From positions 1 through 64,000 of the forward strand of contig CANLRK010000007.1 in NCBI GenBank assembly GCA_947493535.1: a DNA stretch of 64,000 nt. The letters run 5' to 3'. Made by a program: the position numbers and the translations under genes. The stretch's first letter is position 1, and each line of letters opens with the position of its first letter. A model generated the notes under the pieces. The model was not told the origin of the DNA and searched no databases. It worked only from the letters and a program-made list of their open reading frames with translations. Below, piece by piece: positions 11,518-15,338 of this stretch. The DNA is from an uncultured Flavobacteriaceae bacterium (lineage in GTDB: Bacteria; Bacteroidota; Bacteroidia; Flavobacteriales; Flavobacteriaceae).

Positions 11518-12156
11518 TTATCTTCCAAAAAGCCCGCCTAATAAACCACCTAGACCTCCTTTTTTCTTAGAACCTCCTAATACCATTCCTGCAACATCAT
11601 CTAAAATACTTCCATCACCATCGCCATCTAATAAAGATTCTATTAATGTTTGTTGGCTGTTAGCATTTGCACCTCCACCAAGTAAACCGCCTAACAAACT
11701 TTCAATACCACTTGAGTTTGATATATTTTGTTGTTTAGTTTGTTTTCCTAAATAGCCCATAACAATAGGGGCAGCTACTTTTAGAATTTGCATTACGGAA
11801 TCACTATCCATACCAGACTTTTGAGACAAAGCATTGGTTACATTACTTTGCGAGTTTCCTAATATATGACCAAGTATACCTGCACCATCTTGTTTAACAT
11901 CATTGTCAACTCCACCAGCAAATAAGCCACCTAAGTTATCTAAAATAGATCCATCATGTTTATTTGATAATGCACCAATTAATCCAGCAGCCCCTTCTGG
12001 AGTGTTGGCATTTCTTTTCATGGCTCCCATTAAAACTGGTAAAGCCATTGTTAATACTGAAGATGTTTTATCCTCTGGTTGGTTAGCTTCATTGGCTAAA
12101 CCATTAATAATGGTTTTACCCATATCACTATTTAATAATTCTAAAATTCCTGACAT
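11518..12156 (-). CDS. DUF937 domain-containing protein
   Basis: A 212-residue protein of the DUF937 (YidB-like) family: helical repeats with PVLMGAMKRNANTPEGAAGLIGAL near residue 40 and PIVMGYLGKQTKQQN near residue 130, then a glycine-rich low-complexity C-terminus (SLLGGLLGGGANA; a repeated LGGLLGG motif near the end). It is cytoplasmic by appearance with no signal peptide. It lies downstream of the serA-like gene, separated by about 80 bases, and ends at a terminator. The family has no firm function. Confidence 0.82.
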   Translation of the reverse strand: MSGILELLNSDMGKTIINGLANEANQPEDKTSSVLTMALPVLMGAMKRNANTPEGAAGLIGALSNKHDGSILDNLGGLFAGGVDNDVKQDGAGILGHILGNSQSNVTNALSQKSGMDSDSVMQILKVAAPIVMGYLGKQTKQQNISNSSGIESLLGGLLGGGANANSQQTLIESLLDGDGDGSILDDVAGMVLGGSKKKGGLGGLLGGLFGR

Positions 12157-12236: not shown

Positions 12237-13178
12237 TTATTTTAATAAACCTATTATTTGCTTAGCTAAAGTCATGCCAATTTTTTCAGTAGCTTCAATA
12301 GTAGTTGTTGCTATGTTAGGACTTAATGAAATTTCAGGGTTCATTAAGAGTTGAACTTCTGGGTTTGGTTGGTTTTCAAATACATCTAACGCAGCATATT
12401 TAACATGTTTTGCTTCAATAGCATTCACAAGTGCTACTTCATCAATAATACTTCCATGGGCAACATTTACTATTCCTATGCCTTTTTTCATCATTCCAAA
12501 TTCCTTTTCTGTGATACAGTATTGCTCTTGCTTAGGTAAGTTTACTACAATTATATCGGACTGGGTGAGTACTTCATGAACTGGTTGAGCTTTAATAACA
12601 AAACTAACTGATTGCTTATTGAAAAAACGGAGGGTGCTTGTTATAGATTTTGTGGTGCTACATGTACCTATAACGTTCATACCAACTCCAAAAGCTATTC
12701 TTGCAATATCTTCAGCAGCGTTCTTTAAACCAATTATACCAATTGTTTTTCCTTGTAGTTCCAAACCATTTGAAAATTGCTTTTTCAATTCATTAAACCT
12801 ACTATCACCCTCTAGTGGCATTTCTCTATTAGCTTGGTGTAAAAACCTTACCATTCCAAATACATGTGCAAAAACCAGCTCGGCAATAGCATTTCTTGTT
12901 GCTTCCTCAGCATTTATTACATGTATGTTTTTCTCCTTAGCATAAGAAGTATCTATATTCTGATTCCCTGCGTACCCTATTAGTTTGAGTGTAGGGCATG
13001 CATCAATAAAAGCTTTGTTAATACGGGTTGTTTTTACAAGTAATATAGAAATGTTATTTGTATTGATGTAGTTTACAAGTTGATTATCAGCTACTGTAGT
13101 TGTATTAACAGTAAATCCGTTTTGCTCAAGTAATTCAATGGAATATTGAGTTGTGTTATAGGTTATTAATACATTCAT
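12237..13178 (-). CDS. SerA-family D-2-hydroxyacid dehydrogenase homologue lacking the catalytic and NAD motifs
   Basis: The 313-residue protein aligns over its full length with flavobacterial short SerA (D-3-phosphoglycerate dehydrogenase) and follows serC by one base, the usual serCA arrangement. Yet every key site is changed. The catalytic Arg of the NxARG motif is H241 (VNVAHGSIID), the catalytic Glu of the ExEP motif is Q270 (DVFENQP), and the catalytic His of PHIG is N288 (SPNIA). The GxGxxG dinucleotide motif reads GLKNAA (150-155), and the substrate loop GVGxDNID reads YAGNQNID. The frame is open with no stop, so it is not an ordinary pseudogene. Loss of dehydrogenase activity is inferred; a new or structural role is possible. 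I therefore withhold the serA symbol. Confidence 0.85.
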   Translation of the reverse strand: MNVLITYNTTQYSIELLEQNGFTVNTTTVADNQLVNYINTNNISILLVKTTRINKAFIDACPTLKLIGYAGNQNIDTSYAKEKNIHVINAEEATRNAIAELVFAHVFGMVRFLHQANREMPLEGDSRFNELKKQFSNGLELQGKTIGIIGLKNAAEDIARIAFGVGMNVIGTCSTTKSITSTLRFFNKQSVSFVIKAQPVHEVLTQSDIIVVNLPKQEQYCITEKEFGMMKKGIGIVNVAHGSIIDEVALVNAIEAKHVKYAALDVFENQPNPEVQLLMNPEISLSPNIATTTIEATEKIGMTLAKQIIGLLK

Positions 13179-13179
13179 T

Positions 13180-14253
13180 CTAACTTACTTTTTCAAATTG
13201 TTGCATAACATCAACTAATACTTCTACACTTTCTAACGGCATGGCATTGTACATTGATGCACGATATCCGCCCACACTACGATGTCCTTTCAAGCCGCTA
13301 ATTCCTGCTTTTTCCCATGCAGAATCAAAAGCAGTTGTAAGCTTTTCATTTGTTAAAGTAAAGGTAGCATTCATGACACTTCTATCTTCCACAGCTGTGG
13401 TTCCTTTAAATAGAGGGTTACGATCAATCTCATTGTATAAAAGTTTAGCTTTGGCGTTATTGATTTTTTCAATAGCAGGAATACCTCCTAAATCTTTTAA
13501 CCATTGTAGGGTTAACATTGACACATATATAGGAAATACCGAAGGAGTATTAAACATACTATCTTTAGCAATATGTAATTGATAATCTAACATAGAAGGA
13601 ATTTTACGTCCTGTTTTACCTAAAATATCATTTTTAACAATCACAAGTGTTGTTCCGGAAGGACCCATATTTTTTTGAGCTCCAGCATAAATTAAGTCGA
13701 ATTGTGAAAAATCTAGCTGGCGAGAAAAAATATCTGAACTCATATCACACACAGTAATTCCGTCATGTTTAGGAAAACTTTTCATTTGTGTTCCTGCAAT
13801 GGTGTTATTGCTAGTGTAGTGCAAATAATCAATATCATTAGGAATATGATAGTTTTTAGGAATATAGGAGTAATTTTTTTCTTCTGATGACGCAATAATC
13901 CTAGTTTCTCCAAAGAGTTGAGCTTCTTGGATGGCTTTTTTAGCCCAAGTACCGGTGTTTATATATGCTGCTTTCCCATTATTAACATTCATTAAATTGT
14001 AGGGAGTCATTAAAAACTCAGTACTTGCTCCGCCATGTAAAAATAAAGCAGAGTACCCTTTATTAGTAAGTCCTAAATGTTCTAAGGCTAAAGCTCGTGC
14101 TTTTTCAATAACACTAACAAAGTTTTTGCTTCGGTGTGAAATTTCGATTAAAGATAAATTTAAATCATCAAAATTAATAACAGCATTAGCTGCTTGTTGT
14201 AATACTTCTTGTGGTAAAATACATGGGCCAGCACTAAAGTTATGTTTTTTCAT
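13180..14253 (-). CDS. serC: Phosphoserine aminotransferase
   Basis: SerC transfers an amino group from glutamate to 3-phosphohydroxypyruvate in serine synthesis and also acts in PLP synthesis. The 357-residue class-V aminotransferase has the expected N-terminus (KHNFSAGPCILPQEVL), the PLP lysine K194 in YAGAQKNMGPSG and the C-terminal HRSVGGYRASMYNAM that holds phosphate-binding arginine. Length and motifs are normal, so this enzyme looks active, unlike its serA-like partner one base downstream. The LuxC-like reductase gene lies 26 bases upstream in the same direction. Confidence 0.95.
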   Translation of the reverse strand: MKKHNFSAGPCILPQEVLQQAANAVINFDDLNLSLIEISHRSKNFVSVIEKARALALEHLGLTNKGYSALFLHGGASTEFLMTPYNLMNVNNGKAAYINTGTWAKKAIQEAQLFGETRIIASSEEKNYSYIPKNYHIPNDIDYLHYTSNNTIAGTQMKSFPKHDGITVCDMSSDIFSRQLDFSQFDLIYAGAQKNMGPSGTTLVIVKNDILGKTGRKIPSMLDYQLHIAKDSMFNTPSVFPIYVSMLTLQWLKDLGGIPAIEKINNAKAKLLYNEIDRNPLFKGTTAVEDRSVMNATFTLTNEKLTTAFDSAWEKAGISGLKGHRSVGGYRASMYNAMPLESVEVLVDVMQQFEKVS

Positions 14254-14279: not shown

Positions 14280-15338
14280 CTAAAGGTTAGTTAAAAAATC
14301 AAGTGTATTGACATTATCAGCAAAGTCAGTAAGTGTTGGTTTTTGGGTTTGACCAAAAGCTATTTCTCCATCAATAATATTTTTAGCTACAATACATTGA
14401 ATTTTATGTTTGTCGTTGTTTAGTTTTTTCTTTAATTCGTCAATGTCGGTATAATACTCATAAAATACCGATGAAATAGGAGAGGAGTAGCTTTCATCTT
14501 CTTTTAACATTAAAAAGCCATTTTCTAATAAATCAAATAAGCTCATCAAATAAACAGCCTTATTATAATCATAATTATTAGCGTATTTTGCATTGTTTAT
14601 AATGTCCTTATGTGTAAAAACGGCTTTAAAAAAGGCATCAAAATTATAATCTTTAGGAACAAAAAGTTTTGATACACTTCGGCAACCTAGTCCAAAATAT
14701 TTAAAAATATCGTCAGCTAAAGCAGTTAGTTCTTCTGTAGTTTCATTACCGGTTAGTATGGCAACCGAGTTTCTGTTTTCTCTAATTATTGATGGATATT
14801 TACCGAAGTAATATTCAAAATAACGTGCAGTATTGGAGCTACCTGTAGCAATAACAGCATCAAAATTGTTTAGTTTCTCTTGAGTAAAAGTTATTTTGTT
14901 TTTAAAATCATCACAAACATACTGTAAGTATTTTGCCAAAATTGGTAATAGGTGTTTATCGTTAGATGATTGCTTTACGAGTATAGAATGTCCTGAAATT
15001 AATACGGATAAAAAATCATGAAAACCTACTAAAGGTATGTTTCCTGCCATTATTACTGCAATAGTTTTATGTGAAACATTACTAGTAATTCCTGTAGTAA
15101 AATTAGTAAGTTTAGCTGTTGTTAATGAATTACTCCAACCCTCACATGCAAACAAAACGTTTTCGAGGGTAAACCAACCGTTAAATTCTTCAGCACGTTC
15201 TACTTGTAGTTTAAATGCCTCAAAAAAAAGCTCATTATGCGGGATATCTTCTTTTTTAAGAATTCCTTCAGTAGTAAACTGGCTTAAAAAATCACCTAAA
15301 AGTGAAAAAGCTTTAATCCTGGTGCTTAAATTGTTCAT
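14280..15338 (-). CDS. LuxC-like acyl-CoA reductase
   Basis: A 352-residue protein of the acyl-CoA reductase (LuxC/aldehyde dehydrogenase-like) family. It would reduce acyl-CoA or a related thioester to an aldehyde with NAD(P)H. Family stretches are VIMAGNIPLVGFHDFLSVLISGH (about 92-114), a NAD-site-like ATGSSNTARYFEYYFGKYP (about 164-182), the RENRNSVAILTG segment and FGLGCRSVSKLFVPKDY with the probable nucleophile C218. In flavobacteria it sits stably between a ferredoxin gene and serC, as here. The true substrate is not known. Confidence 0.82.
   Translation of the reverse strand: MNNLSTRIKAFSLLGDFLSQFTTEGILKKEDIPHNELFFEAFKLQVERAEEFNGWFTLENVLFACEGWSNSLTTAKLTNFTTGITSNVSHKTIAVIMAGNIPLVGFHDFLSVLISGHSILVKQSSNDKHLLPILAKYLQYVCDDFKNKITFTQEKLNNFDAVIATGSSNTARYFEYYFGKYPSIIRENRNSVAILTGNETTEELTALADDIFKYFGLGCRSVSKLFVPKDYNFDAFFKAVFTHKDIINNAKYANNYDYNKAVYLMSLFDLLENGFLMLKEDESYSSPISSVFYEYYTDIDELKKKLNNDKHKIQCIVAKNIIDGEIAFGQTQKPTLTDFADNVNTLDFLTNL

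Follow-up and report, generated by a model that had tools for sequence, protein, structure and literature searches.

The closest described system to the gene studied here is the type IIIH phosphoglycerate dehydrogenase (PGDH), a short SerA represented by the Pyrococcus horikoshii enzyme (structure 1wwk), which resembles our protein in length, in its two-domain fold, and in having no regulatory domain, and whose motifs are carried by intact orthologues at the same locus, but whose catalytic Arg, Glu, and His, phosphate-binding arginines, and two P-loop glycines are gone from our protein. A review of 2-hydroxyacid dehydrogenases describes how, in SerA, the Arg of an Arg-Ser motif and a further Arg in a loop bind the substrate, the former its phosphate (PMC6303947). 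A superfamily member without catalytic residues is already known, as the review also describes plant ANGUSTIFOLIA (CTBP_ARATH), a CtBP-related relative of the 2-hydroxyacid dehydrogenases that lacks them (PMC6303947). ANGUSTIFOLIA is like our protein as a retained superfamily member without catalytic residues and unlike it in being eukaryotic, in belonging to a sister clade of CtBP rather than to SerA, and in having neither an operon nor repeats within one bacterial family. The SerB-like/SerA/ACT fusion (type II PGDH) belongs to the same superfamily as well and, unlike our protein, has complete motifs, ACT-like and HAD domains, and a length of 631 aa. HisZ is a bacterial pseudo-subunit, an inactive paralogue retained because it regulates an active enzyme of its pathway; our gene would be alike as a dead paralogue that was kept, with a partner and a regulatory role that are putative. 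In the open-access literature, we found no report of a bacterial SerA pseudoenzyme at serC.

The gene lies at 12237..13178 (-) of the window, by which we mean the whole 64,000-nt stretch analyzed, from contig CANLRK010000007.1 of an uncultured Flavobacteriaceae bacterium. A sequence-only reading had taken it for an intact serA-like gene, which is confirmed by an ORF that runs without interruption for 313 aa, by two Pfam domains above their cut-offs (2-Hacid_dh_C, PF02826, 115 bits vs 25.1; 2-Hacid_dh, PF00389, 53.6 bits vs 24.6), and by an alignment over the length of the protein to 1wwk, its best sequence match among solved structures (E 6e-35) and also its best structural match in Foldseek. 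Scores against TIGR01327 (175.9 vs 454 bits) and NF008759 (117 vs 404 bits) fall short, and both models describe longer SerAs. The AlphaFold model has the full two-domain fold (mean pLDDT 85), and its best VIA-align scores, at a Z of about 30, are to PGDHs (first seven rows: Z 30.1-30.4, 291-294 residues, rmsd 3.7-4.9); an intact orthologue, L017, modeled with the same sequences, reached pLDDT 86 with the same low-confidence stretch at ~110-140. Upstream, serC (phosphoserine transaminase, 13180..14253 (-)) ends with a stop codon 1 nt ahead of the start of our gene, its product scoring 463 bits against a cut-off of 253 in one curated model and narrowly missing another (435.1 vs 443.6). Beyond serC on its upstream side, a gene resembling acyl-CoA reductase (LuxC) (14280..15338 (-)) is also the neighbor in several of nine relatives examined, and the downstream DUF937 gene (11518..12156 (-)) is common to some of these nine, others having there what we take to be a DUF1015-like gene.

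The protein is without the catalytic Arg, Glu, and His and without the GxGxxG motif of active 2-hydroxyacid dehydrogenases. Codons and orthologue alignment agree with the sequence-only reading that H241 (CAT, 12456..12458 (-)), Q270 (CAA, 12369..12371 (-)), and N288 (AAC, 12315..12317 (-)) stand where intact orthologues have the catalytic Arg, Glu, and His, respectively, and that GLKNAA (residues 150-155, 12714..12731 (-)) replaces GxGxxG. Only one of the three P-loop glycines remains, and a Cys takes the place of the NAD-specifying Asp. The substrate loop YAGNQNID (Y69-D76, 12951..12974 (-)) is present as reported, but the place-for-place match to GVGxDNID proposed for it gives way in the alignment to a two-residue deletion (RGGVGMDNID to YAG--NQNID), which leaves the loop two residues shorter and its Arg replaced by Tyr. 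To these changes we add the substrate-binding arginines: R49 and R70 (numbering of L010, an orthologue from the window's genus with an intact triad) have become K49 and Y69, the former (13032..13034 (-), from codons and orthologue alignment) replacing the phosphate-binding Arg, with the result that K49-T50 occupies the place of the Arg-Ser motif of SerA and type IIIH PGDH. Since the catalytic Arg, Glu, and His are all present in 219 of 252 orthologue sequences, the residues in the window are exceptional. A frameshift or sequencing artefact in the window gene is excluded by the open ORF and by the same types of loss in other assemblies. From these motifs, we infer that the short SerA at the window no longer oxidizes 3-phosphoglycerate, and a "serA" annotation at the serC locus is no proof of phosphoglycerate dehydrogenase activity.

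Three 2-hydroxyacid dehydrogenases of the window genome score above 100 bits, and five further matches are weak. The second SerA is a 631-aa fusion of HAD (SerB-like), SerA, and ACT-like domains, whose SerA part passes the curated PGDH model NF008759 (644.8 bits, cut-off 404) and keeps the Arg, Glu, His, and glycines by eye, and whose N-terminal part is SerB-like, yet under the SerB cut-off (79.7 vs 144); the third of the three is a 311-aa paralogue with complete motifs. It had been proposed that serine would now need another SerA or uptake, and the first half of this stands, with uptake not needing to be invoked because another SerA is encoded in the genome. The fusion probably carries out the reaction lost by the window protein. 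Our best explanation, which as a whole we consider probable though far from secure, is that the window gene descends from the type IIIH (short, serC-linked) PGDH of Flavobacteriaceae and is a pseudoenzyme, catalysis having passed to another SerA and the dimer having been kept for a non-catalytic role, probably in the SerC/serine branch. The fusion, perhaps aided by the 311-aa paralogue, would have taken over the 3-phosphoglycerate chemistry, so the pocket of the short SerA would have been free to decay, while selection would hold the fold and the subunit-contact region for the second, non-catalytic job of the dimer. The likeliest job would be structural or regulatory, exerted on the SerC/serine branch through contact with SerC or the fused SerA; as the gene directly follows serC, its partner would be sought first in SerC or the serine branch. 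The suggestion in the sequence-only reading of a SerC partner or regulator has tight gene linkage alone in its favor. That the short serC-linked SerA always had a hidden non-catalytic role, exposed whenever another SerA takes over the chemistry, is a tentative extension to which we give slightly less than an even chance.

The serC-linked short serA is near universal in the family (384 of 396 genomes, E 1e-45). The 252 orthologue sequences that we gathered, which include two duplicates, one sequence that a frameshift divides, and one truncated where its contig ends, form a non-random sample made up of best hits to the window gene and L022, one densely sampled genus (a match in 55 of 58 genomes), fusion genomes (90 of the 92 in the family), and low-scoring genomes without the fusion. 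The catalytic Arg is missing in 32 of the 252, in six genera, and its loss defines what we call the lost type. This set comprises the window gene and L012 (two of the four genomes of their genus), 21 genomes of g131, five across g164, g174, and g100, two of g54, and the named records L018 and L022, of which L022 (titled Tenacibaculum) is 91% identical in short serA to G321 of g131. All 32 are full length (309-323 aa), and their spacing to serC is -20 to +117 bp, with a median (57 bp) equal to that of intact genes. Active-site loss is a recurrent state in this family, and the window gene no lone oddity. On a SerC tree (237 tips, FastTree), the lost-type sequences form 11 pure-lost clades, a count taken from one tree in which several supports beside lost clades are weak (0.11-0.94). 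Losses in g1, g131, and g164 are certainly independent because these genera hold intact congeners, and the independence of those in g54, g100, and g174 rests on the SerC tree. A QPNP DNA pattern matched only the window genome among the 396, being too narrow because other lost-type genes carry other residues.

On the SerA tree, the window gene falls together with L018/L022 (support 0.95), whereas the SerC tree places the window with L010 and L012 (0.995) and L018/L022 with L041 (0.96). Transfer of one pseudo-gene between genera is rejected, as the SerC tree separates the window from L018/L022, and the SerA-tree grouping is read here as long-branch attraction, which is not proven. The window gene and L012, though from one genus, may represent separate losses, because their residues differ and the trees disagree on the partner of L012, which is the intact L010 on the SerA tree (0.66) and the window on the SerC tree (0.47). 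L010 already lacks the NAD-specifying Asp, in a stretch (residues 168-181, IGMKVIATSSSIKK) that is identical in L012, though L012 is of the lost type.

The residues that accompany the catalytic Arg into loss do so at different frequencies. None of the 32 lost-type genes keeps the loop Arg or the loop Gly; 29 have lost the Arg of the Arg-Ser motif, 24 the middle P-loop Gly (G155), 19 the catalytic His (replaced by Asn in 16 and by Lys in one), and 15 the catalytic Glu, only ever to Gln; the first P-loop glycine is kept in all 32, all three glycines in eight, and the NAD-specifying Asp in 24. In six more genes, all from g131 and all from genomes with the fusion, the triad is kept and one or both phosphate-site arginines are changed. 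These six genes, together with the counts, suggest a rough order of decay in which substrate binding goes before the cofactor loop and the Glu-His pair goes last: the phosphate-binding arginines, loop glycine, and catalytic arginine would be the first losses, followed by the NAD glycine loop, and then by the replacement of Glu by Gln and of His by Asn. The main rival to the pseudoenzyme reading, that the pocket has been rebuilt for another ligand or reaction and is held by selection as a new enzyme, draws on the non-randomness of these same changes (Gln as the only substitute for Glu, Asn as that for His in 16 of 19 cases, the first glycine always kept and the Asp mostly). We judge it unlikely, as the lineages share no new pocket: the catalytic Arg has been replaced by H, K, Q, N, Y, or G and the loop Arg by C, N, S, V, Y, K, A, T, or I. 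An alternative active site of the kind found in type IIIK PGDH, which the same review places in Bacteroidetes with an Arg plus a Lys instead of the Arg/His/Glu triad (PMC6303947), has next to no probability, given that type IIIK keeps the active-site Arg that the 32 lack by definition, that His has become Lys in one of the 32, and that the window protein has neither residue (H241, N288). The protein might instead serve as a non-catalytic sensor of NAD(H) or of a metabolite, an option that the retained glycines and Asp of some lost-type genes would suit, as would CtBP, whose co-repression is thought to need an NAD-dependent conformational change (PMC6303947); we hold it to be decidedly unlikely, and by its motifs (GLKNAA, and Cys for Asp) the window protein itself would be a poor NAD binder.

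Conservation was compared over 110 columns that are conserved in intact genes. In 12 representatives of the lost type, 49% of these columns are retained in the pocket motifs, 80% outside them, and 93% in region 101-150, and in the 12 intact genes that have diverged most the figures are 91%, 87%, and 91%, respectively; the pocket set was taken from family motifs but drawn up after the decay had been seen, with residues 94-100 added for that reason, which makes the p-values optimistic. Conserved pocket columns are thus those least kept, against the expectation for a new enzyme. According to the review, a cross-subunit residue sits in the alphaB'-betaA' loop (PMC6303947), which by our own mapping falls in 101-150, presumed here to be the subunit-contact region.

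Selection on the lost-type genes was assessed with a pairwise codon model written for this analysis, applied to sister genes in which the catalytic Arg has given way to the same residue (12 usable pairs from seven groups, and hence not all independent). Values of dN/dS were 0.017-0.055 in 11 of the 12 pairs and 0.20 in L301/L302, and neutrality (dN/dS = 1) was rejected in all 12 (2dlnL 21 to 287), although some pairs have a high dS (L022/L084, 6.1). The eight intact pairs that could be used gave 0.013-0.099, a range that contains 11 of the 12 lost-type pairs, as a new enzyme would also have it, and SerC of the 12 pairs gave 0.010-0.112. Purifying selection after loss of the catalytic Arg is thus seen in the lost-type relatives, in line with the earlier proposal of a pseudoenzyme kept in the serC operon, since all 32 genes are open and beside serC; of the signs of decay named at that time, neither frameshifts nor a dN/dS near 1 appeared in the 32 genes and 12 usable pairs. 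For the window gene, pairs with L012 and L018 have saturated dS, and no relative near enough to give a clean estimate is among the collected sequences; neutrality (omega = 1) is rejected on its branch (2dlnL 50), which, however, is saturated and also spans pre-loss time, so that the claim for the window gene rests on its relatives and its open frame. That the lost-type family consists of pseudoenzymes is, on these motif and codon data, well supported, and that the window gene is one is supported only indirectly.

The same data bear on the view that the gene is a relic, redundant and decaying neutrally, with an ORF open by chance or for translational coupling. Faster protein change would fit it (window and L012 are 50.8% identical in short SerA vs 79.8% in SerC), as would two fusion genomes that have lost the short serA, but the rejection of neutrality, the full-length ORFs, and the window branch, for all its saturation, speak against it, and when random draws were simulated at 0.2 per site, the frame stayed stop-free in only 0.35% of runs; we rate it as improbable. 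The two genomes in question, G066 and G281 of genus g64, are small (1.6-1.7 Mb), with the fusion present and no match to the short serA, which would make the second job dispensable in some lineages. If the pseudoenzyme reading is right, a change from enzyme to non-enzyme would have happened several times in a single syntenic gene and be caught at various stages, with sister species that keep the enzyme intact as a control, making it testable whether a central metabolic enzyme has a second function. If the hidden role were also true, the family would be a natural experiment in which two roles of one protein come apart, in six genera and with certain independence in at least three of them.

Whether loss follows the fusion is less clear. 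The fusion is patchy, occurring in 92 of 396 family genomes and in 53 of 58 g131 genomes (one copy truncated), and it is present in 26 of the 30 lost-type genomes with a handle. The four others are G003 and G426, incomplete genomes (82% and 53%) in which no fusion was found, and G056 and G275, of one genus and 99% complete, which have a paralogue like the 311-aa one. Loss of the loop Arg was seen in 31 of 141 genomes with the fusion vs 4 of 93 without (p 0.0001), a link that leans on the dense sampling of one genus and is therefore not relied on; an even draw across the family gave no significant association (7 of 90 with the fusion and 2 of 90 without it, p 0.17). That redundancy with another SerA permits the loss is plausible, not proven. 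SerC also works in B6 synthesis, and the short SerA, adjoining serC, could accordingly be the erythronate-4-phosphate dehydrogenase of that route, lost where B6 is not made; we find this very improbable, as PdxJ is present in 37 of the 38 genomes searched, including all 21 lost-type ones, so that the route is retained where the pocket is gone and B6 offers no explanation.

Several further loci were noted in the survey. A reciprocal case is found in G454 (C3:257540-258511, L092), where the fusion is truncated (match to 6-330 of 631, frame of 430 aa) and the active site of the short serA is whole. Two of the 92 fusion genomes, G176 (C12:47890-49125) and G350 (C39:73978-75213), both of genus g174, have a SerA-ACT protein without the HAD/SerB part, in frames of 415 and 425 aa. 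The short serA of G135 (L303; genome 99% complete and without the fusion) lies in two overlapping frames, from a frameshift or an assembly error. Finally, two records titled Woesearchaeota (L034 and L035) hold proteins of 630-631 aa with fusion-type motifs.
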